Source: Arenicola marina (Eukaryota > Annelida > Polychaeta > Arenicolidae). From it: a DNA stretch of 64,000 nucleotides. Numbering within the stretch: position 1 is the stretch's first letter; each line of letters begins with the position of its first letter. A program made the translations under genes and the position numbers. Shown here piece by piece: positions 12,926-57,652 of the stretch. The notes below the pieces were generated by a model. It was not told where the DNA came from and made no database searches. It was given only the letters and a program-made list of their open reading frames with translations. The stretch is from positions 28,209,639 through 28,273,638 of the forward strand of contig OZ025263.1 in assembly GCA_964019135.1 (NCBI GenBank), written 5' to 3'.

Positions 12926-13029
12926 CTGTAAAACAAAGCAGAGACATGTCTAAATATATACAAAATACGTCAGTCGCGTGTAAATCTCCGCATCATTAAA
13001 GGTTTCGCCTGCGCTTTCAGTGGGTTATA

Positions 13030-15572
13030 AGATACTGTACTAAATGGGTTAAACGATACTCTTATAATGGGGCTATATGATACTGTACTAAGTGGGCTAT
13101 ATGAAACTGTACTAAGTGGAATATATGATACTGTACTAAGTGGACTATATGATACTGTACTAAGTGAACTATATGATACTGTACTAAGTGGACTATATGA
13201 TACTGTACTAAGTGGACTATATGATACTGTACTAAGTGGGCTATATGCTACTGTACCAAGTCGGCTATATGATACTGTACTAAGTAGACTATATAATACT
13301 GTACTAAGTGGACTATATGATATTGTACTAAGTGGACTATATGATACTGTACTAAGTGGACTATATGATACTGTACTAAGTGGGATATATGATACTGTAC
13401 CAAGTCGGCTATATGATACTGTACTAAGTGGACTATATGATACTGTACCAAGTGGGATATATGATACTGTACTAAGTGGTCTATATGATACTGTACTAAA
13501 TGGACTATATGATACTATTAACTGAGCCATATGATACTGTACTAAGTGGACTATATGACACGGCACTAATTGGGCTATATGAAACTACTAAATGGACCAT
13601 ATGCTACCGTACTAAGTGGACTATATGATTGTGTACTAAGTGGACTATATGATACTGTACTAAGTGGGCTATATGATACTGTACCAAGTCGGCTATATGA
13701 TACTGTACTAAGTGGACTATATGCTACTGTACTAAGTGGGCTATATGATACTGTACAAAGTGGACTATATGATACTGTACTAAGTGGGCTATATGATACT
13801 GTACCAAGTCGGCTATATGATACTGTACTAAGTGGACTATATGATACTGTACCAAGTGGGATATATGATACTGTACTAAGTGGTCTATATGATACTGTAC
13901 TAAATGGACTACATGATACTACTAACTGAGCCATATGGTACTGTACTAAGTGGACTATATGACACTGCACTAATTGGGCTATATGAAACTGTACTAAATG
14001 GGCCATATGCTACCGTAATAAGTGGACTATATGATATTGTACTACGTGGACTATATGATACTGTACTAACTGGGCCATATGATACTGTACTAAGTAGGCT
14101 ATATGATACTGTACTAAGTGGGCTTTATGATAGTGTACTAAGTGGGCTATTTGGTACTGTACTAAGTGGACTATATGATACTGGACCAAGTGGGATATAT
14201 AATACTATACTAAGTGGTCTATATGATACTGTACTATATGATGCTACTAACTGAGCCATATGGTACTGTACTAAGTGGACTATATGACACTGCTCTAATT
14301 GGGCTATATGAAACTGTACGAAATGGACCATATGCTACCGTACTAAGTGGACTATATGATATTGTACAAAGTGGACTATATGATACTGTACTAACTGGGC
14401 CATATGATACTGTACTAAGTGGGCTATATGATACTGTACTAAGTGGGCTATATGATAGTGTACTAAGTGGGCTATATGATACTACTAACTGAGCCATATG
14501 GTACTGTACTAAGTGGACTATATGACACTGCACTAATTGGGCTATATGAAACTGTACTAAATGGGCCATATGCTACCGTACTAAGTGGACTATATGATAT
14601 TGTACTAAGTGGACTATATGATACTGTACTAACTGGGCCATATGATACTGTACTAAGTGGGCTATATGATACTATACTAAGTGGGCTATATGATAGTGTA
14701 CTAAGTGGGCTATATGGTACTGTACTAAGTGGACTATATGATACTGTACCAAGTGGGATATATGATACTGTACTAAGTGGTCTATATGATACTGTACTAA
14801 ATGGACTATATGATACTACTAACTGAGCCATATGGTACTGTACTAAGTGGACTATATGACACTGCACTAATTGGGCTATATGAAACTGTACTAAATGGGC
14901 CATATGCTACCGTACTAAGTGGACTATATGATATTGTACTAAGTGGACTATATGATACTGTACTAACTGGGCCATATGATACCGTACTAAGTGGGCTATA
15001 TGATACTGTACTAAGTGGGCTATATGATAGTGTACTAAGTGGGCTATTTGGTACTGTACTAAGTGGACTATATGATACTGTACCAAGTGGGATATATGAT
15101 ACTGTACTAAGTGGTCTATATGATACTGTACTATATGATGCTACTAACTGAGCCATATGGTACTGTACTAAGTGGACTATATGACACTGCACTAATTGGG
15201 CTATATGAAACTGTACGAAATGGACCATATGCTACCGTACTAAGTGGACTATATGATATTGTACAAAGTGGACTATATGATACTGTACTAACTGGGCCAT
15301 ATGATACTGTACTAAGTGGGCTATATGATACTGTACTAAGTGGGCTATATGATAGTGTACTAAGTGGGCTATATGATAGTGTACTCAGTGGGCTATATGA
15401 TACTGTACTAAGTGGGCTATATGATAGTGTACTAAGTGGACTATATGGTACTGTACTAAGTGGGCTATATGATAGTGTACTAAGTGGACAATATGATACT
15501 GTATAACCCATTTATATGTACTCAGTGGGCTATATAATATGGTACTAAATGGGCTATATGATGCTGTGCTGT
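13030..15572 (+). repeat. 24-bp minisatellite, about 105 units, with higher-order repeats
   Basis: Basic unit contains GATACTGTACTAAGTGGACT plus ATAT. Since 24 is a multiple of three, long open frames appear on both strands (LSGLYDTV and SPLSTVSY). A marker variant ACTAACTGAGCCATATGGTA recurs near 13918, 14241, 14483, 14816 and 15141, giving higher-order units of about 240-335 bp. The array ends about 100 bp from the acceptor of the membrane-protein exon and so probably lies in its intron. Confidence 0.95.
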
Positions 15573-16198
15573 GGCATAGCCGGGATCTGTCCCGTCTAAT
15601 GTCGAGCGCGGTACCACTCACCCACGGGCGATTATCTAAAGCAGATCTACTATATGATAATGTGATGCAGTCTTGACATTTGACCTATGACCCTAACCAC
15701 AGTGGCCGAGCGAAGGTTGATCACTTGAAGGCACATTATGCATGAAACAAAACATAAGCACACAGCTATACATAAATCTACATATATATGTGTCTGTACT
15801 CCTATAGTACGGATGTGTGGGATCCCGAGTTTTTCTCCCGGGCTTTGCATAAGGGTTTTTTTCAGTTTGCATAAAGTACATAGACGCCCAGCGAATACTA
15901 ATTACTCGACGTGCTGGCAATGGAGTCCTATCAACCAAGGTGAGTTTATATTGCGCCATTCTTGCCACCACTGGGCGTACCTATGGCTGTCACTGTTGGC
16001 TGGTGGAGCGTTGCCCCGTATCGCTTTGTACTGAACACGTGGCCAAAGTCCAAGCCCCCGGGGTTTGGGGGATCTGCATGTATTCGGTGCAGTTTGCACA
16101 GTGGTACGGGCTTGACGTTTATGGGTGGCCATATGGGTTATAATGTGCGGGCTACACTGATAATGGTGTTTATGAATACAATCAAGCGGTGGCCATGC

Positions 16199-16445
16199 AG
16201 GGACCCCCTGCGTAGTTCAGTGGGTAAGCGGGCTGAGCTGCGGATCAACAGGTCAGGGTCCCCCTGCGTAGTTCAGTGGGTAAGCGGGCTGAGCTACGGA
16301 TCAACAGGTCAGGGCCCCCCCTGCGTAGTTCAGTGGGTAAGCGGGCTGAGCTGCGGGTCAACAGGTCAGGGACCCCTTGCGTAGTTCAGTGGGTAAGCGG
16401 GCTGAGCTGCGGATCAACAGGTCATAGGTTCGAACCCTGGTGCAA
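16199..16445 (+). repeat. Tandem tRNA-like A-box units (4 x about 57 bp) ending in a B box
   Basis: Four copies of GCGTAGTTCAGTGGGTAAGC plus GGGCTGAGCTGCGG start near 16211, 16267, 16324 and 16380. Only the last continues into a B box (GGTTCGAACCC). It looks like a tRNA-derived SINE whose 5' half has been amplified in tandem. Confidence 0.8.
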
Positions 16446-23850: not shown

Positions 23851-24007
23851 AACCCGTCAGCGTCATCAAGAATGTAGCACAAGATGTCAGGCATGAGTGA
23901 CTGTAGCTCTGACATCAAGACCGCCACCAAGGTGACGGTTTTGAATACCACAACACGTTTCGATGTGGAGTCCCTTTCGAAAGCTCCCGGCGTAAACTGT
24001 TAACAAT

Positions 24008-26113
24008 ATAGAACGTGGCTTGGTAAAGGCGCTCTGCCAGGTCAGTCAGTCCACCTTTGGCGGATGTTACCCCGTCGCCCAGTCGGTATATAGCGTGGCT
24101 TGGTAAAGGCGCTCTGCCAGGTCAGTCAGTCCACCTTTGGCGGGTGTTACCCCGTCGCCCAGTCGGTATATAGCGTGGCTTGGTAAAGGCGCTCTGCCAG
24201 GTCAGTCAGTCCACCTTTGGCGGATGTTACCCCGTCGCCCAGTCGGTATATAGCGTGGCTTGGTAAAGGCGCTCTGCCAGGTCAGTCAGTCCACCTTTGG
24301 CGGGTGTTACCCCGTCGCCCAGTCGGTATATAGCATGGCTTGGTAAAGGCGCTCTGCCAGGTCAGTCATTCCACCTGTGGCGGGTGTTACCCCGTCGCCC
24401 AGTCGGTATATAGCGTGGCTTGGTAAAGGCGCTCTGCCAGGTCAGTCAGTCCACCTTTGGCGGGTGTTACCCCGTCGCCCAGTCGGTATATAGCGTGGCT
24501 TGGTAAAGGCGCTCTGCCAGGTCAGTCAGTCCACCTTTGGCGGGTGCTACCCCGTCGCACAGTCGGTATATAGCGTGGCTTGGTAAAGGCGCTTTGCCAG
24601 GTCAGTCAGTCCACCTTTGGTGGGTGTTACCCCGTCGCCCAGTCGGTATATAGCGTGGCTTGGTAAAGGCGCTCTGCCAGGTCAGTCAGTCCACCTTTGG
24701 CGGGTGTCACCCCGTCGCCCAGTCGGTATATAGCGTGGCTTGGTAAAGGCGCTCTACCAGGTCAGTCCACCTTTGGCGGGTGTCACCCCGTCGCCCAATC
24801 GGTATATAGCGTGGCTTGGTAAAGGCGCTCTGCCCGGTCAGTCAGTCCACCTTTGGCCGGTGTTACCCCGTCGCCCAGTCGGTATATAGCGTGGCTTGGT
24901 AAAGGCGCTCTGCCAGGTCAGTCAGTCCACCTTTGGCGGGTGTTACCCCGTCGCCCAGTCGGTATATAACGTGGCTTGGTAAAGGCGCTCTGCCAGGTCA
25001 GTCAGTCCACCTTTGACGGGTGTTACCCCGTCGCCCAGTCGGTATATAGCGTGGCTTGGTAAAAGCGCTCTGTCAGGTCAGTCCACCTTTGGCAGGCGTT
25101 ACCCCGTCGCCCAGTCGGTATATAACGTGGCTTGGTAAAGGCGCTCTGCCAGGTCAGTCAGTCCACCTTTGGCGGGTGTTAGCCCGTCGCCCAGTCGGTA
25201 TATAACGTGGCTTGGTAAAGGCGCTCTGCCAGGTCAGTCAGTCCACCTTTGGCGGGTGTTACCCCGTCGCCCAGTCGGTATATAGCGTGGCTTGGTAAAG
25301 GCGCTCTGCCAGGTCAGTCAGTCCACCTTTGGCGGGTGTCACCCCGTCGCCCAGTCAGTATATAGCGTGGCTTGGTAAAGGCGCTCTGCCAGGTCAGTCA
25401 GTCCACCTTTGGCGGGTGTCACCCCGTCGCCCAGTCGGTATATAGCGTGGCTTGGTAAAGGCGCTCTGCCAGGTCAGTCAGTCCACCTTTGGCGGGTGTT
25501 ACCCCGTCGCCCAGTCGGTATATAGCGTGGCTTGGTAAAGGCGCTCTGCCAGGTCAGTCACTCCACCTTTGGCGGGTGTCACCCCGTCGCCCAGTCGGTA
25601 TATAGCGTGGCTTGGTAAAGGCGCTCTGCCAGGTCAGTCAGTCCACCTTTGGCGGGTGTCACCCGGTCGCCCAGTCGGTATATAGCGTGGCTTGGTAAAG
25701 GCGCTCTGCCAGGTCAGTCAGTCCACCTTTGGCGGGTGTCACCCCGTAAAGGCGCTCTACCAGGTCAGTCCACCTTTGGCGGGTGTTACCCCGTCGCCCA
25801 GTTGGTATATAGCGTGGCTTGGTAAAGGCGTTGTGTCAGGTCAGTCCACCGTTGGCGGGTGTTACCCCGTCGCCCAGTCGGTTTATAGCGTGGTTTGGTA
25901 AAGGCGCTCTGCCAGGTCAGTCAGTCCACCTTTGGCGGGTGTTACCCCGTCGCCCAGTCGGTATATAGCGTGGCTTGGTAAAGGCGCTCTGTCAGGTCAG
26001 TCCACCTTTGGCGGGTGTCACCCCGTCGCCCAGTCGGTATATAGCGTAGCTTGGTAAAGGCGCTCTGCCAGGTCAGTCAGTCCACCGTTGGCGGGTGTTA
26101 CCCCGTCGCCCAC
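24008..26113 (+). repeat. 80-bp satellite, about 26 units
   Basis: Unit contains CGGTATATAGCGTGGCTTGG, TAAAGGCGCTCTGCCAGGTC and CACCCCGTCGCCCAGT. Units are 95-100% alike, with a few 76-bp ones lacking one CAGT of CAGTCAGT. Each has a TATATAGC. No long ORF and no tRNA-like boxes. Confidence 0.95.
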
Positions 26114-42822: not shown

Positions 42823-45800
42823 ATGGATTGTTCATTGGCACGGTGCTGCCTCCTAGTGATCGTGTCCTTGGCTACAGGAACGTTTGCCGACCAACGACCC
42901 AACATCGTTTTCATTCTGGCTGATGACTTGGTAAGTATAGTGTTGTTGTGACGACAGTTTTTATCTAACATGTCAAAGTATATGAATGTAGTGTCATGCA
43001 TCGATCATCGCTATAATAAATTGGGTAAACGATCGGCAGTCCCCTTGTATAACTATCGAGTTAGCTGCAGAGCAGTCCACGTGATATGATTGCCTATTTC
43101 GCTGGACTAGACTAAGTGGAGTGAGGCAAACAAACTTCAGGACTATGGCAGGAATAACATGATCTGTTGCCGCCCAAAACATTTACCAAATGTAACTGCC
43201 CATTCATTTCTACCATTTGCTTCTTTGGGGGTTTCTTTTTGGTAGGGCTGGAATGATGTCAGTTTCCATGGATCTAAAGAGATCCCGACTCCGAACCTGG
43301 ACACTCTGGCTTACGACGGTGTGATCCTGAACAACTATTACGTGCAGCCCATCTGTACCCCAACTCGAGGCACCCTCCTGACCGGCAGAGTGCCGATCCA
43401 TACAGGTATATGAACGCCGCCCTGGTGGTCCTCTTACTCATATCTCCTTTTCACTCGTAAAACTTCAAAGTTGCATTGGCGGCTCGAAGGGAACATTTAT
43501 CATTGAATTTATGATAAATATGAAGATACAAAATATACTATTGACTAATAAAAAGGACTTGGACGAAGACGGCTGCACCCTAATAATCGTTGTATAGCGC
43601 GTTTGCCATTGCTCGTAAAAGGTAGCCTGCGAGCTCGTTTCTCGTCAAATGACCCCCTGGACATCTATGCCAAGGACCTGAATATCTAGAAATCTCCAAT
43701 CACCACTTTTAAATTCTCAAATTGTAGGTCTGAATAATTATTCTGAATTCGATTCAATTCGAACCACTGCCCATGTTGTGTGTACAGACATGTAATGCCC
43801 CTGTCCAAGTTTAATGTGCGGAGACTTTAACTTCGCGTTATTCCTCTGCCCAGGCTTACATCACAAGGTCAAAGCGACGTCTCGGCCCTATGTATATGCG
43901 GAGACTGTACAGAGACTGTGCTTGGTGTACAGTCAAGTATTGCCCCTGTCTAAGTTTAATGTGCGGTGACTTTAACTCCATGTTATTCCTCTGCCCAGGC
44001 TTACAGCACAAGGTCATAGCGACGTCTCAGCCCTATGGCCTCCCGCTTAACGAGACTGTCCTGCCGGAGTACCTCAAGAAGCTCGGCTACGCCACCCACA
44101 TCGTGGGCAAGGTCAGTCAATGTTAAGGTCAAGGTCACACACCACGAGGCCACTCCACCCACATGGCGGGGAAGGTCGGTTAAGATCAAGGTCACACACC
44201 GCTTGGCTAGTCCACCCACATGGTGGGCAAGATCGGTTAGGTCAAGGTCACGCACCGCTTGGCTAGTGGGCTAGGTCGGTTAAGGTCAAGGTCACACACG
44301 GCTTGGCTAGTGGGCAAGGTCAGTTAAGGTCAAGGTCACACACCGCTTGGCTACTCCTCACATATGGAGGACATGAGTCTATACACACACACACTGCATG
44401 TATGAGCCTTATGTCGTCCGAGATGCTGCACCAAACCCAATAACACGTTGTCACAGCTAGGTTTCCTCATCGCGATTCCTATTCGACGAGTAATAATTTG
44501 TGTACCGGTAGGCCCTATATTGGAAAGTGGTTACTACCGTACTTATTGGTTTAGATATATACAAATTCCTTCAATGTCAGATGTGAGATTTATTACAAAA
44601 TGGAGTCTTTTATAGGGTGCCAAGGAAGCATATGTTATGTTCTCATAGAACGCCAAAGTGCCTGTTTTCAACTCTCCACTTAATATATCAGACCCATAAC
44701 TTAATGCAAGTTTAATCATCATTTCATGCGACGAATAATAACGTTAATTGTGTAGACAGTCAAGTCATATCGTTGACTCTACATCTATATGGAACGGAGG
44801 TTGTAGATGGGGCCATTTGAATTATGCATTAAGATAAGGTTTATGGTCTGTATATATATATAGTGGCATCTCGGGATGTTCGCCAAAGAATACACCCCGA
44901 CGTATCGTGGGTTCGACTCCCATCTGGGCTACTACTCCGGGTGTGAAGACTACTACGATCACACCTACGCCGGAAAGGGACTCCGGGTGAGCATTTCTTG
45001 TCTCTCCTTTTAAACCACAGTTCGTTTATTATTATTTTATTTTTATGTTTATTATTAATATTTTATTTTTATGTTTATTATTAATATTTTATTTTTATTT
45101 TTAATATTTTATTTTTATGTTTATTATTAATATTTTATTTTTATGTTTATTATTAATATTTTATTTTTATGTTTATTAATATATATATATATTTTTTAAA
45201 TATCTTATTGTTCAAGTTTTAGCTTACAGACGTCAAATATCAATGACATAATAATAACAACGTTCAACATAACATATACACTGACGCTCTTCAAATTATT
45301 CGTAATGTCTCTAATATATAGGATCATACTTTAACTTTATCAAATTAATACAGTTTATCGCGGCCAAGAAATTATCTATGTTGGCAAGATATTTAATAAC
45401 AGACAGTGCCCCTTGAGTTGTGACCTTTGCTTGCCGGCACCTTGATAGATAAATGTATCTCTTTACAATTAACAATATATGGTTGATATATGGATCAAAC
45501 CACCGTATATTAATTTTGAGAATTGTTCCATAATCTCGCTTCCAACTGCGCTGTTTAGAAACTTCAAATTAGGATTCGCCTTCCCTGTATGACGTACTTT
45601 AGTAAAGGTTAGTCGTGAGTAATACATGAGCTAAGTTGAAGCAATGGCTTGCACCTGCTGTTTAAATTATGTCTTCAGCGTTCTGTCTGCATGATTATGA
45701 GTACGCGCACTAATGCAGCAACTGAATGTTATTTTAGTGCAATTATAAAATGTCAGTATTGCAGCGATTGTTTATGCTATTCATAGTAATATTATAATAA

Positions 45801-48800
45801 TATCTTGTCGCTGATGTCGCTTGTATCCGTATCCAGAAGGATGTGTGGGGATTGGACTTTTGGAGAGACAGGCAACTGTTAAAGAACGACTTTAGTGTAT
45901 ATTCCACCGATGTGTTCACCAAAGAAGCAAAGAGAATCATTGAAACTCATGACACAGAGAAGGTAAGTACTGTAAAGATTTTACCTTTCAATTAATTAAT
46001 TAAATAACTCTTTTCGATCATCGTAATCGCTTAGAGCAGCTATCTATCCACATCATTTTCTTTCTATACCAGTCGCCACAGTGGTACTCCTGTCTGGTTA
46101 CAGCCATTGTTCCTGTACCTACCGTACCAGGCTGTCCACAGCGGTAACGCCGCCAGTCAGACACCGCTCGAGGCACCATGGAAATACATCCTGAAGATGT
46201 CCCACATAAAGCACAGCGGACGGAGACTGTACGCCGGTAAGCTAACCGAACACACCGTACGCCGGTAAGCTAACCGAAAACACTGTACGCCGTTAAGCTA
46301 ACCGAACACACTGTACGCCGGTAAGCTAACCGAACACACTGTACGCCGGTAAGCTAACCGAACACACTGTACGCCGGTAATTAAGCTGACCGAACACACT
46401 GTACGCCGGTAAGCTAACCGAACACACTGTACGCCGGGACTTAAGCTAACCGAACACACTGTACGCCGGTAAGCTAACCGAACACCCTGTACGCCGGTAA
46501 GCTAACCGAACACACTGTACGCCGGTAAGCTAACCGAACACACTGTACGCCGGTAAACTAACCGAACACACTGTACGCCGGTAATTAAGCTAACCGAACA
46601 CACTGTACGCCGGTAAGCTAACCGAACACACTGTACGCCGGGACTTAAGCTAACCGAACACACTGTACGCCGGTAAGCTAACCGAACACCCTGTACGCCG
46701 GTAAGCTAACCGAACACACTGTACGCCGGTAAGCTAACCGAACACACTGTACGCCGGTAAACTAACCGAACACACGGTACGCCGGTAAGCTAACCGAACG
46801 CACTGTACGCTGGTAATTAAGCTAACCGAACACACGGTACGCCGGTAATCTAACTGAATACACTGTACGCCGGTAAGCTAACCGAACACACTGTACGCCG
46901 GTAAGCTAACCGGACACATTGTACGCCGGTAAACTCACCGGACACACTGTACGCCGGTAAGCTAACCGAATACACGGTACGCCGGTAAGCTAACTGAACA
47001 CACTGTACGCCGGTAAGCTAACCGAACACACTGTACGCCGGTAAGCTAACCGAACACACTGTACGCCGGTAATTAAGCTAACCGAACACACGGTACGCCG
47101 GTAAGCTAACTGAACACACTGTACGCCGGTAAGCTAACCGAACACACTGTACGCCGGTAAGCTAACCGAACACACTGTACGCCGGTAAGCTAACCGAACA
47201 CACTGTACGCCGGTAATTAAGCTAACCGAACACACTGTACGCCGGTAAGCTAACCGAACACACTGTACGCCGGGACTTATGCTAACCGAACGCACTGTAC
47301 GCCGGTAAGCTAACCGAACACCCTGTACGCCGGTAAGCTAACCGAACACATTGTACGCCGGTAAGCTAACCGAATACAATGTACGCCGGTAAGCTAACCG
47401 AACACACTGTACGCCGGTAAGCTAACCGAACACACTGTACGCCGGTAAGCTAACCGAACACACTGTACGCCGGTAAACTAACCGAACACACGGTACGCCG
47501 GTAAGCTAACCGAACGCACTGTACGCCGGTAATTAAGCTAACCGAACACACGGTACGCCGGTAATCTAACTGAATACACTGTACGCCGGTAAGCTAACCG
47601 AACACACTGTACGCCGGTAAGCTAACCGGACACATTGTACGCCGGTAAACTAACCGGACACACTGTACGCCGGTAAGCTACCGAATACACGGTACGCCGG
47701 TAAGCTAACTGAACACACTGTACGCCGCTAAGCTAACCGAACACACTGTACGCCGGTAAGCTAACCGAACACACTGTACGCCGGTAAGCTAACCGAACAC
47801 ACTGTACGCCGGTAAGCTAACCGAACCCACTGTACGCCGGTAAGCTAACCGAACACACTGTACGCCGGTAAGCTAACCGAACACACTGTACGCCGGTAAG
47901 CTAACCGAACACACCGTACGCCGGTAAGCTAACCGAAAACACTGTACGCCGTTAAGCTAACCGAACACACTGTACGCCGGTAATTAAGCTAACCGAACAC
48001 ACTGTACGCCGGTAAGCTAACCGAACACACTGTACGCCGGTAAGCTAACCGAACACACTGTACGCCGGGAATTATGCTAACCGAACACACTGTGCGCCGG
48101 GAATTATGCTAACCGAACACACTGTACGCCGGGAATTATGCTAACCGAACACACTGTACGCCGGTAAGCTAACCGAACACACTGTGCGCCGGTAAGCTAA
48201 CCGAACATACTGTACGCCGGTAAGCTAACCGAACACACTGTACGCCGGTAAGCTAACCGAACACACTGTACGCCGGTAAGCTAACCGGACACACTGTACG
48301 CCGGTAAGCTAACTGGACACACTGTACGCCGGTAAGCTAACCGAATACACGGTACGCCGGTAAGCTAACTGAACACACTGTACGCCGGTAAGCTAACCGA
48401 ACACACTGTACGCCGGTAAGCTAACCGGACACACTGTACGTCGCTAAGCTAACCGGACACACTGTACGCCGGTAAGCTAACCGAATACACGGTACGCCGG
48501 TAAGCTAACTGAACACACTGTACGCCGGTAAGCTAACCGAACACACTGTACGCCGGTAAGCTAACCGAATACACTGTACGCCGGTAAGCTAACCGGACAC
48601 ACTGTACGCCGGTTATTAAGCTAACCGAATACACGGTACGCCGGTAAGCTAACTGAACACACTGTACGCCGGTAAGCTAACCGAACACACTGTACGCCGG
48701 TAAGCTAACCGAACACACTGTACGCCGGTAAGCTAACCGAACCCACTGTACGCCGGTAAGCTAACCGAACACATTGTACGCCGGTAAGCTAACCGAACAC

Positions 48801-51800
48801 ACTGTACGCCGGTAAGCTAACCGAACACACTGTACGCCGGGAATTATGCTAACCGAACACACTGTACGCCGGGAATTATGCTAACCGAACACACTGTACG
48901 CCGGTAAGCTAACCAAACACACTACGCCGGTAAGCTAACCGAACACACTGTACGCCGTTAAGCTAACCGAACACACTGTACGCCGGTAAGCTAACCGAAC
49001 ACACTGTACGCCGGTAAACTAACCGAACACACGGTACGCCGGTAAGCTAACCGAACGCACTGTACGCTGGTAATTCAGCTAACCGAACACACTGTACGCC
49101 GGTAAGCTAACCGAATACACTGTACGCAACCGAACACACTGTACGCCGGTAAGCTAACCGAATACACTGTACGCAACCGAACACACTGTACGCCGGTAAG
49201 CTAACCGAACGCACTGTACGCTGGTAATTAAGCTAACCGAACACACTGTACGCCGGTAAGCTAAACGAACACACTGTACGCCGGTAAGCTAGCCGAACAC
49301 ACGGTTAGCCGGTAAGCTAACCGAACACACTGTACGCCGGTAATTAAGCTAACCGAACACACGGTACGCCGGTAAGCTTACCGAACACACTGTACGCCGG
49401 TAAGTTAACCGAACACACTGTACGCCGGTGAGCTAACCCAACACACTGTACGCCGGTAATTAGGCTAACCGAACACACTGTACGCCGGTAAGCTAACCGA
49501 ACACACTGTACGCCGGTAAGCTAACGGAACACACTGCACGCCGGTAAGCTAAACGAACACACGTACGCCGGTAAGCTAGCCGAACACAGTGTACGCAGGT
49601 AAGCTAACCGAACACACTGTACGCCGGTAAGCTAACCGGACACATTGTACGCCGGTAATTAGGCTAACCGAACACACTGTACGCCGGCAAGCTAACCGAA
49701 CACACTGTACGCCGGTAATTAAGCTAACCGAACACACTGTACGCCGGTAATTAAGCTAAACGAACACACTGTACGCCGGTAAGCTAACCGGACACATTGT
49801 ATGCCGGTAATTAGGCTAACCGAACACACTGTACGCCGGCAAGCTAACCGAACACACTGTACGCCGGTAATTAAGCTAACCGAACACACTGTACGCCGGT
49901 AATTAAGCTAAACGAACACACTGTACGCCGGTAACCTCACCGAACACACTGTACGCCGGTAAGCTCACCGAACACACTGTACGCCGGTAAGCTAACCGGA
50001 CACTGTACGCCGGGAATTATGCTAACCGAACACACTGTACGCCGGTAAACTAACCGAACACATTGTACGCCGGTAAGCTAACCGAACACACTGTACGCCG
50101 GTAAGCTAACCGAACACACTGTACGCCGGTAAGCTAACCGAACACACTGTACGCCGGTAAACTAACCGAACACACGGTACGCCGGTAAGCTAACCGAACG
50201 CACTGTACGCTGGTAATTCAGCTAACCGAACACACTGTACGCCGGTAAGCTAACCGAATACACTGTACGCAACCGAACACACTGTACGCCGGTAAGCTAA
50301 CCAAACACACTGTGCGCCGGTAAGCTAACCGAACACACTGTATGTCCGGACCCCCTGGACACCACCCCTGGATCTGCCCTTGCGTACAAGGACTAAACCA
50401 ACCCGCGCCATGTGTGGGATGAAGGACGGTGTAAAGCAATCCCCGTGAGAGATTTATAATAAAGAATCGAATATGGGACTCCCGTCCTACTCAAGAACAA
50501 ATAAGCTGTTCAAGTGTACACCTAAAATCCAACTGTCATTATAATATTGGCCAATCACATGCATTGCAATCATTCTTTGCCGACCGAGTTTCTGTCCAAC
50601 CTAGGCTTCATCTCTTGTCCATGGATAAATTTTATATCAAAGCACGTATACATCCCCCGCTATAGTCGAACAAACTCTTTTCTTTCTCTCCGCCAAATAT
50701 TCTTACAATATTGGCCAATCACTGGCGTTGCTATCATTCCATGCGGACAGCTATGATGTCAGCGCTTGACGACGCGGTGGGTCAGGTGACCAGCGCTTTG
50801 CACGCGCGCGGCCTCCTCAACAACACCATATTGGTCTTCTCAACGGACAACGGTGGCTCCGCCAACGGCATCTGGCTGAACTGGGGCAACAACTGGCCGC
50901 TAAGGTTAGTTAGTGCATGATATATATGTATATATTGCAGAGCATTTTATCGGCAATGGAAGAAAGTTTTTAATGATGTGCATAATGCATATTGGTAAAT
51001 TATTGCTGGCTAAAACATGTATTGATTAAATTGTCAGTTTAATTATTATTGCGCAAATCGTGGGCGTCCATAATCTATGACATGAAGCAGAACATTACTT
51101 CAATTATACGAGAAAACGTTTATAACGACAATAATAATTACTGTATTTTCTCACGGTTCCATACTATCGTTCAGAAGCATGAAGAGTACAGTGTGGGAGG
51201 GCGGTTCCAGAGGGGTCGGGTTCATCTGGAGCCCCTTGCTCCCCCGCTCCGGATACGTCTCTCAAGATCTCATCCACGTCAGCGATTGGCTGCCCACGCT
51301 GCTGCACGCAGCCGGATATGACGTCACGCGGCTACCGCGTAACCTCGATGGCGTGGATGCCTGGGAACTGCTCTCCGGTACAGATGACGTCATCAAGTCG
51401 GCCAGACGAACGGAGATGTTGTATAACATCGACCCCATCCAGCCGACCTTCGCGCTTCGGGTCGGCGATTTGAAGGTCATTTACGGGAACGGAAGCACGA
51501 CGCAGAAATTCCGGGGCTGGTATCGCCCGATTAGTTACCATGACAGAGGTCTGCTCCTGCCCCCGCGAGACGAGGAGTACGATAACGCTGGAGACGGCGC
51601 CCTTCCTCGGGAAGAAGCACGTGCGTATGCAGACGTGTACCCGAGGGAGCGCCCGTCAAATCGGCCCTCTGGGGTCAAGGCTGCGCCCGAGTACCTCTTC
51701 CGGTCAGACTTGGCAGCCATCTTGCGCGACTTGGGGCGAAAGCCAAGACCCAACAACCCAGTTGTCGTAAACTGCGGACCGCGACCGGCTAACTACAGCC

Positions 51801-52084
51801 AGAACTGCCAACCGGAAGTGTCCCCCTGCGTCTTCAATCTCACCGCCGACCCGTGCGAGTTCAATAACCTGGCCCCCTGGCGCCCGGACATGCTGCGCTC
51901 GCTGCTCACCCGGCTGGGGGACTTCAACGCGACAATGGTGCCCCCCGGGAACAAGCCTGAGGATCCCCTGGGGTTCCCGGGCCTGCACGGCGGGGCCTGG
52001 GTCCCCTGGCGCAACCTGACCGCCACAGACCTCAGCCAGCTCAGCCAACGGAAGCATGACCTGGACAGCATAGCAATTCATTAA
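42823..52084 (+). CDS. Secreted/lysosomal arylsulfatase, ARSB/ARSI/ARSJ group, 8 exons, 608 aa
   Basis: Exons: 42823-42930, 43246-43405, 43999-44111, 44864-44986, 45837-45962, 46104-46236, 50751-50904, 51175-52084. All introns are GT-AG, phases agree, and the sum is 1827 nt. A signal peptide covers about residues 1-22. Sulfatase landmarks in order: [11 protein letters not shown] (metal Asp34, Asp35), GWNDVSFHG, the formylglycine motif [12 protein letters not shown] (Cys73), ATHIVGKWHLG (Lys127, His129), QAVH (His222), FSTDNGG (Asp287, Asn288) and NNWPLR...[11 protein letters not shown]. The C-terminal half carries HNIDP-like [22 protein letters not shown] and GGAWVPW, as in ARSB/I/J. It hydrolyses sulfate esters, probably of glycosaminoglycans, in lysosome or secretory space. 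Several NXS/T sites are present. Thr replaces the usual Ser in C-X-P-S-R, which is tolerated in the family. Intron 6 is 4.5 kb and almost wholly a minisatellite derived from its own donor. The precise paralogue is not decidable here. Confidence 0.93.
43577..43662 (+). repeat. Dispersed repeat, copy in arylsulfatase intron 2
   Basis: Contains AATAATCGTTGTATAGCGC, a GAGCTCGT block and CCCCTGG. The same order is found at 53188-53298. Short dispersed element of unknown type. Confidence 0.5.
43781..44037 (+). repeat. Tandem duplication of the exon 3 acceptor region (145-bp unit)
   Basis: 43781-43892 and 43926-44037 align throughout at a constant offset of 145 bp. Each contains the intron end CTCTGCCCAG and the first codons of exon 3. 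The upstream copy is a decoy: spliced in, it would reach a stop after about 36 codons. The downstream copy is the functional exon because it keeps the family sequence [18 protein letters not shown]. Confidence 0.85.
44095..44350 (+). repeat. Tandem copies of the exon 3 donor edge in arylsulfatase intron 3
   Basis: Beginning in the last codons of exon 3 (CACATCGTGGGCAAG|GTCAGT), about five imperfect units of roughly 45-65 bp follow. Each has a version of GTGGGCAAGGTCAGTTAAGG and then GGTCAAGGTCACACACCGC. One copy at 44312-44324 keeps GTGGGCAAG|GTCAGT exactly. Confidence 0.8.
45028..45195 (+). repeat. AT-rich 26-bp tandem repeat in arylsulfatase intron 4
   Basis: About six units of ATTATTAATATTTTATTTTT plus ATGTTT, ending in a short TA run. 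Confidence 0.75.
46227..50348 (+). repeat. 28-bp minisatellite (about 147 units) made from the exon 6 splice donor of the arylsulfatase gene
   Basis: The unit is 28 bp (some 32-bp variants with an extra TTAA-like insert). It contains CTGTACGCCGGTAAGCTAAC. The first copy includes the last ten coding bases of exon 6 (CTGTACGCCG) and its donor GTAAGC. Thus nearly every unit repeats the exon-intron junction, plus CTAAC, which matches the branch-point consensus. Variant units recur about every 200 bp near 46377 and 46580, showing higher-order duplication. The array fills over 90% of intron 6. Confidence 0.95.
50539..50752 (+). repeat. Duplicated exon 7 acceptor flank in arylsulfatase intron 6
   Basis: About 45 bp around ATATTGGCCAATCAC occur at 50541 and again at 50705, about 164 bp apart. 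The second copy runs into the exon 7 acceptor. The first has lost the AG equivalent. Confidence 0.6.
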
Positions 52085-57137: not shown

Positions 57138-57240
57138 TTCAGCTGATTATCTCATATCTCCTTCTCTACAGCGTCCGATATTTCTTCAGTATCCTCTCCT
57201 CTACTGCATGCTACGTGATCCAGGTTATAACTTCCCCATT

Positions 57241-57652
57241 CAGCTTGTGGGGTGAGATTCAGGACGCATACACATCGGGATCCCGACAACTTCCAATCGG
57301 TGGCGTTCCGGATCAGCTTGTGGGGTGAGATTCAGGACGCGTCCACATCGGGATCCGAACAACTTCCCATTGATTGCGTTCCGGATCAGCTTGTGGGGTG
57401 AGATTCAGGACGCGTCCACATCGGGATCCGGACAACTTCCCATCGGTGGAGTTCCGGATCAGCTTGTGGGGTGAGATTCAGGACGCGTCCACATCGGGAT
57501 CCGGACAACTTCCCATCGGTGGAGTTCCGGATCAGCTTGTGGGGTGAGATTCAGGACGCGTCCACATCGGGATCCGGACAACTTCCCATCGGTGGCGTTC
57601 CGGTTTAGCTTGTGGGGTGAGATTCAGGACGCGTCCACATCGTGATCAGGAT
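57241..57652 (+). repeat. 73-bp minisatellite seeded from the end of the zinc-finger coding sequence
   Basis: Units start at 57241, 57314, 57387, 57460, 57533 and 57606, exactly 73 bp apart and nearly identical. The last unit runs into the coding exon. Read on the minus strand each copy contains GATGTGGACGCGTCCTGA, i.e. the last codons (DVDAS) and the stop of the zinc-finger protein. The array therefore occupies the start of the 3' UTR and repeats the stop region about six times. Confidence 0.9.

Follow-up and report, generated by a model that had tools for sequence, protein, structure and literature searches.

A boundary-spanning minisatellite in an arylsulfatase-B-like gene of Arenicola marina is probably a tolerated array of donor copies

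How is an exon joined correctly to the next one when its donor is followed, within the same intron, by 124 further candidate donors? This question is raised by intron 6 of an arylsulfatase-B-like gene in a 64,000-nt stretch of the genome of the polychaete Arenicola marina (hereafter the window; positions 28209639-28273638 of contig C18, within an 867-Mb assembly). Most of this intron consists of a minisatellite with a 28-bp unit that straddles the end of exon 6. The array is very likely a neutral minisatellite of the type known in lancelets as a mirage, that is, a tandem duplication of an exon/intron boundary, with the exon-proximal donor being the one used.

Tandem Repeats Finder (TRF) delimited the array at 46226-50342, with a period of 28 and 144.2 copies, and wrap-around alignment to a cyclic 28-base consensus resolved 145 units of 54 kinds, the last unit being partial. 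Exon 6 closes with the ten bases CTGTACGCCG, after which the donor gtaagc starts at 46237. Unit 1 thus spans the boundary: it consists of the ten exon bases CTGTACGCCG followed by GTAAGCTAACCGAACACA, the donor with 18 intron bases. The sequence of this first copy was found exactly in 40 of the 145 units, the first included. A preliminary description, made from the letters of the window, had reported about 147 units ending at 50348; the array it described is real, and its counts are corrected here to 145 units and, by TRF, an end near 50342. That the array opens with the ten last coding bases of exon 6 and their donor is borne out by both the alignment and the gene model. The statement that nearly all units keep CCG/GTAAGC (the slash marks the exon-intron boundary) was too strong: CCGGTAAGC occurs 92 times, the exact donor being kept in about two-thirds of the units, and CTAAC occurs 128 times. 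The branch-point-like role proposed for CTAAC is unsupported, as the units, on reading the sequence, have no pyrimidine tract. An exact internal copy of 201 nt is present inside the array, and no higher-order period was detected, in that no lag of up to 79 units made more than one-third of the units identical.

The unit core matched 108 times in the window and 0 times in 100 shuffles, so that a chance origin of these matches is excluded. Genome-wide, with up to two mismatches allowed, it matched 108 times on the forward strand, 0 times on the reverse strand, and 0 times in a backward-read control (positions were available for 100 among the matches listed). Because the genome count equals the window count, all copies of the unit core sit in the intron-6 array. 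The array as a dispersed satellite was accordingly ruled out, and its occurrence elsewhere, away from exon 6, which the preliminary description had named as counterevidence, was not found in the assembly.

The host gene is intact. Its eight exons, on the plus strand, splice into a protein of 608 aa without an internal stop, and each of the seven introns has GT-AG boundaries. In a profile search, the protein showed a full-length PF00884 domain (residues 26-354, 1.4e-53), and its closest relative of known structure, first among 83 distinct sequences matched, was 1fsu, N-acetylgalactosamine-4-sulfatase (human ARSB; 1.1e-111). Residues 73-77, encoded in exon 2 (43246-43405), form the active-site motif as CTPTR, the usual form being CxPSR. 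In the alignment to 1fsu, the residues at the end of exon 6, RRLYA-A-M, pair with RHHYA-G-M. Since these residues align with ARSB, the exon part of the unit is old and served as the template for the array; together with the confinement of the unit core to this intron, the alignment identifies exon 6 as the source.

The sulfatase family is large in this genome, with at least 119 profile matches; a cluster of them lies on contig C1 (43706951-43967545), many of its members each occupying one open frame of about 503 aa. The exon 6 and exon 7 protein matches of three paralogues are separated by only about 0.4-0.7 kb, against an intron of 4514 nt here, and at the exon-6 donor of two of them (L130 and L132) no array was found. 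The third, L131 (C18, 28.84 Mb), has an array of its own at this donor (L131 positions 76-240). It starts with CTGTATGCCG followed by GTATGTTAGGGG and continues with four matched units, the intronic part of which differs from that of the main array; one more partial unit is discernible by eye. In three of the four matched units, GT is missing at the donor place (two have GC and one has AT). The two arrays may derive from an older shared array, the units of which were replaced, or from two separate starts.

With an array made of the end of exon 6 plus its donor, intron 6 holds a field of decoy donors, as anticipated in the preliminary description: 125 GT donors follow CCG, CTG, CGG, or CAG, the first included. 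None of the 124 later donors, when joined to exon 7, gave an open frame. A stop is met 15 residues past exon 6 for donor 2, where the frame is shifted, and 10 residues past it for donors 3-12 (distances were obtained for donors 2-12, the frame outcome for all 124), in agreement with the earlier estimate of an in-frame stop after about ten codons. Use of any later donor would therefore break the predicted protein. The first donor and all 92 copies have the same predicted pairing with U1, -8.2 kcal/mol, within the range of the gene's remaining exon donors (-6.5 to -12.0), which means that nothing in the donor marks the right one. Given that unit 1 is identical to 39 others, the donor itself cannot determine the choice, and position or the upstream exon sequence must do so, for example, through pairing of the used donor with the acceptor of exon 6.

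Exon edges elsewhere in the genome put the array in context. We surveyed myosin (70 of 77 listed matches) and kinesin (20 of 133 listed matches), taking the ends of profile matches as approximate edges and retaining matches with internal stops; of the p450 (97) and ABC-transporter (68) matches, none was sampled. Half of the first set of 60 loci were sulfatase loci, and in 19 of these 30 a single frame held the complete domain. The counts over 90 edges comprise myosin and kinesin only and leave aside L030 (an acceptor repeat in a match that contains 18 stops) and L035 (a sulfatase donor). The donor edge of the myosin head was repeated into the intron at 4/30 and 8/40 loci, and the acceptor edge at 0/30 and 3/40. 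With a uniform flank of 200 nt, repeats were found at 15/90 donor edges and 6/90 acceptor edges; when each edge was compared with the flank of another locus, the result was 0/90 for both. The units can be large and numerous: in the myosin locus L047, a 62-bp unit corresponding to the exon end has 23 further copies, L067 carries 14 copies of about 100 bp and L070 10 copies of 42 bp, and in the myosin locus L072, a GC donor (CAG/gcaagt) lies in an 85-bp unit with five more tandem copies. A stricter copy measure was applied to 15 loci, of which L035 and L084 scored none although repeated in the looser scan, and the donor of L083 is doubtful. In the 11 loci that remain without L035, L083, L084, and L102, use of the second donor would lead to a stop in seven and to a shifted frame in four.

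Intronic pseudo-edges, placed away from the match in 30 longer myosin loci, were repeated in 72/237 cases downstream and 71/237 upstream, which is more often than donor edges (Fisher test, 0.012) and acceptor edges (2e-6). TRF coverage over the 70 myosin loci gave the same picture, with 0.207 at 0-20 nt from the donor edge, 0.073 at the same distance from the acceptor edge, and about 0.26 deeper in the intron. On the donor side, the final 10 bases of the exon had a coverage of 0.174, which rose to 0.257 at 20-50 nt; on the acceptor side, it rose from 0.063 to 0.137 and did not reach 0.24 until 150-200 nt. Array sequence came within 10 nt of the edge at 14/70 donors and 6/70 acceptors. Donors as hotspots of duplication were ruled out by these intronic frequencies together with the coverage profile. 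Arrays thus fall throughout introns, and selection appears to have cleared the zone before the acceptor most and the donor zone less, with the difference between donor and acceptor remaining suggestive.

The kinesin matches on contigs C390, C504, and C536 have TAG and TAA in frame, whereas TGA is absent; these contigs could be contamination, perhaps from a ciliate or another organism in which TAA and TAG encode glutamine.

Similar arrays have been described in other animals. For lancelets, a Canestro paper of 2002 is said to be an earlier account concerned with Adh. Lancelet mirages are minisatellite-like tandem duplications of exon/intron boundaries in Adh3, globins, troponin C, and PGBD5, which are reported to differ in length among alleles, to be unstable even in the soma, and to leave regular splicing undisturbed (PMC3087553, PMC3902484). 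The Arenicola array shares with them, including those of the globins BflGb6 and BflGb9, the boundary-spanning unit, the size of a minisatellite (28 bp), and units that carry splice signals (92 with the exact CCG/GTAAGC). In both, several genes of one genome and both kinds of boundary are hit, here 15/90 donor and 6/90 acceptor edges. The differences are that the BflGb6 haplotypes have 6 and 3 units and the Adh3 units measure 10-72 bp, against 145 units of 28 bp here, and that the present genome is that of an annelid, with prevalence measured on sampled exons. The assembly itself has annelid traits. Under the invertebrate mitochondrial code, its mitochondrial contig shows the order nad3, nad2, cox1, cox2, atp8, cox3 (cox1 identified by profile, the others from their translations), which is typical of annelids and differs from that of lancelets. 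The annelid haemoglobin-linker domain Eryth_link_C matched 4 times in the genome and in none of 14 control genomes; the controls that carry names are prokaryotes, which makes them uninformative about other animals.

In annelids, a literature search that was far from exhaustive recognised no report of mirages. Intronic minisatellites of about 180 nt occur in an earthworm metallothionein gene, where they are not reported to span a donor (PMC12783039), and minisatellites make up 2.65% of the Amynthas earthworm assembly, in passages that make no mention of splice sites (PMC12130307), a figure measured differently from the TRF share obtained here (arrays with a period of at least 7, which cover 21.7% of the window and, in the myosin flanks, 29.8%). 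Two human cases resemble the present one and differ in outcome. A minisatellite with multiple donors in IFI6 (6-16) was reportedly described by Turri in 1995. Its repeat units likewise carry donors at an exon end, and two downstream units are used, yielding three mRNAs (PMC4526556), whereas here, use of a later unit would truncate the protein. Internal tandem repeats in human segmental duplications also include minisatellite expansions at exon-intron boundaries, with an average of four 30-bp units, and these are linked to altered splicing or to new introns between paralogues (PMC2812944).

We propose that the array began as a tandem duplication of a short segment over the exon 6/intron 6 junction and later grew within the intron to 145 units, the copies piling up downstream, where the intron can take them in. 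Provided that exon 7 is joined to the exon-proximal donor, the protein would be unchanged and the later donors would be passive. A duplication over a donor would place the extra donor downstream and let the exon retain its own, so that the copies would be invisible. A duplication over an acceptor would place the extra acceptor upstream, where it would tend to be met first, and would disturb the branch-point and pyrimidine region; for both reasons, such duplications would be selected against. This reasoning rests on general knowledge of splicing, and the survey counts fit it, in that selection would act against an array that disrupts the acceptor signal, which is the longer one, or that supplies another acceptor upstream. 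Considering the intact gene and the lancelet reports, the first donor is most likely the one used.

Several observations weigh against this explanation. Use of the first donor is inferred, and one array unit, CCG/GTAAGT, has a stronger predicted pairing with U1 (-10.9 against -8.2 kcal/mol) and could compete with it. The used IFI6 units (PMC4526556) and the human boundary repeats that can alter splicing (PMC2812944) point the same way, and lancelet mirage units, too, could serve as cryptic sites (PMC3087553). As for the survey, its edges are ends of profile matches instead of annotated exon ends, and matches interrupted by stops were retained; the kinesin edges show no contrast (2/20 for donor and for acceptor), and the overall contrast between donor and acceptor is borderline (Fisher test, 0.061; discordant loci, 14 versus 5, 0.064).

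The same facts could be read as regulation. The later donors might compete with the first, with copy number setting how much of the mRNA is truncated and degraded, and hence the enzyme dose, a role that we regard as improbable, even though 92 donors are identical, all 124 distal ones break the protein, and minisatellite units are known as donors in IFI6 (PMC4526556) and as neighbors of alternative splicing at human boundaries (PMC2812944). In Caenorhabditis elegans, the CeRep25B minisatellite is enriched near multiply spliced regions, the minisatellites described there being intronic and not copies of junctions (PMC4039745). Against such a role, similar repeats are common at the exon ends of other families (15/90 donor edges) and are no more frequent at donors than deeper in introns. 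The two GT columns of the unit alignment, 11 and 12, match in 136/145 and 139/145 units, much like other columns; this absence of extra conservation in the 145-unit alignment is a weak test, as the units are not independent. In L131, three of the four units lack GT at the donor place, and lancelet mirages were reported without aberrant mRNA (PMC3087553, PMC3902484). Copy-number regulation of sulfatase splicing, as put forward in the preliminary description, is thus unlikely. A broader version, in which about 100 near-identical donors compete as a functional decoy field and array length is a heritable dial between individuals or tissues, a trick used at many exon ends, seems to us very unlikely. 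With similar repeats at about one-sixth of the sampled donor edges, the array is probably tolerated and not a switch.

Tolerance could also mean that this gene copy is decaying and that its splicing no longer matters. The many sulfatase copies and CTPTR in place of the usual motif would suit that explanation, which we nonetheless consider very unlikely, given the open 608-aa frame with GT-AG introns throughout, the full sulfatase domain, and the similar repeats in myosin and kinesin exons. An error in the length or the very existence of the array is a concern in a single assembly, arrays being hard to assemble and this one containing a 201-nt exact internal copy; with 54 kinds of units in complex order, many separate arrays of the same type, and a length of 4.1 kb that long reads generally cover, we find an artefact highly improbable. 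That a satellite or mobile repeat landed at exon 6 and supplied the exon end can be practically dismissed: no support was found for it, the 867-Mb assembly contains the unit core only in this array, the residues specified by the coding bases common to exon and array can be aligned with ARSB, and what is repeated at L047 is the end of a myosin exon. A neutral mirage-type array is the most likely explanation.

The same gene contains other repeats at or near exon edges (Table 1): an array that starts with the end of exon 3 and its donor, a two-copy duplication over the acceptor of that exon, and a duplicate of the end of intron 6. On the opposite strand, a 73-bp array has the last codons and the stop of a C2H2 zinc-finger gene in its first unit and is the coding-end counterpart of the donor spill-over.

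Table 1. Repeat arrays, duplications, and gene features in the window
Feature	Coordinates	Strand	Evidence
Sulfatase exons 1-5	42823-42930, 43246-43405, 43999-44111, 44864-44986, 45837-45962	+	Spliced open reading frame
Sulfatase exons 6-8	46104-46236, 50751-50904, 51175-52084	+	Spliced open reading frame
Exon 6, arylsulfatase-B-like; final 10 bases open repeat unit 1	46104..46236	+	608-aa open reading frame, PF00884, 1fsu
28-bp minisatellite, 145 units; consensus, 10 nt of exon-6 end and donor/18 nt of intron	46227..50342	+	TRF, alignment
Intron 6, 4514 nt, of which the array makes up about 4.1 kb	46237..50750	+	Gene model
Authentic intron-6 donor, CCG/gtaagctaa; 9-mer CCG/GTAAGC common to 91 more array copies	46237..46245	+	Sequence, frame join to exon 7
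Exon 7	50751..50904	+	Gene model
Diverged duplicate (79%) of intron-6 end; copies 50529-50584 and 50693-50748, directly before acceptor	50529..50748	+	
Two-copy duplication (90%) over acceptor and first bases of exon 3	43780..44037	+	
Second array, in intron 3; about 5 diverged copies of exon-3 end (GTGGGCAAG) with its donor gtcagt	44085..44353	+	
73-bp array, 5.6 copies; first unit contains last codons and TGA stop of C2H2 zinc-finger gene	57240..57651	-	

Elsewhere in the window, TRF identified large minisatellites at 13019-15567 (24-bp units) and 24007-26112 (80-bp units). The 56-bp repeats at 16198-16424 resemble a tRNA-type promoter box (TAGTTCAGTGGG), and dispersed sequences of this tRNA-like sort seem to be found again in the window as well as in L131.

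As far as this genome was sampled, the intron-6 array is ordinary in kind and extreme in size, and its occurrence in an annelid suggests that mirages are not confined to lancelets. The choice among equal neighboring donors is usually studied with built minigenes. Intron 6 offers a natural experiment on the same choice, with 92 identical donor 9-mers, 40 of them in identical 28-nt units, among which only position and upstream exon sequence make a distinction. The survey is a sampled, many-gene version of that experiment, in which about one-sixth of the donor edges, and fewer of the acceptor edges, are repeated.

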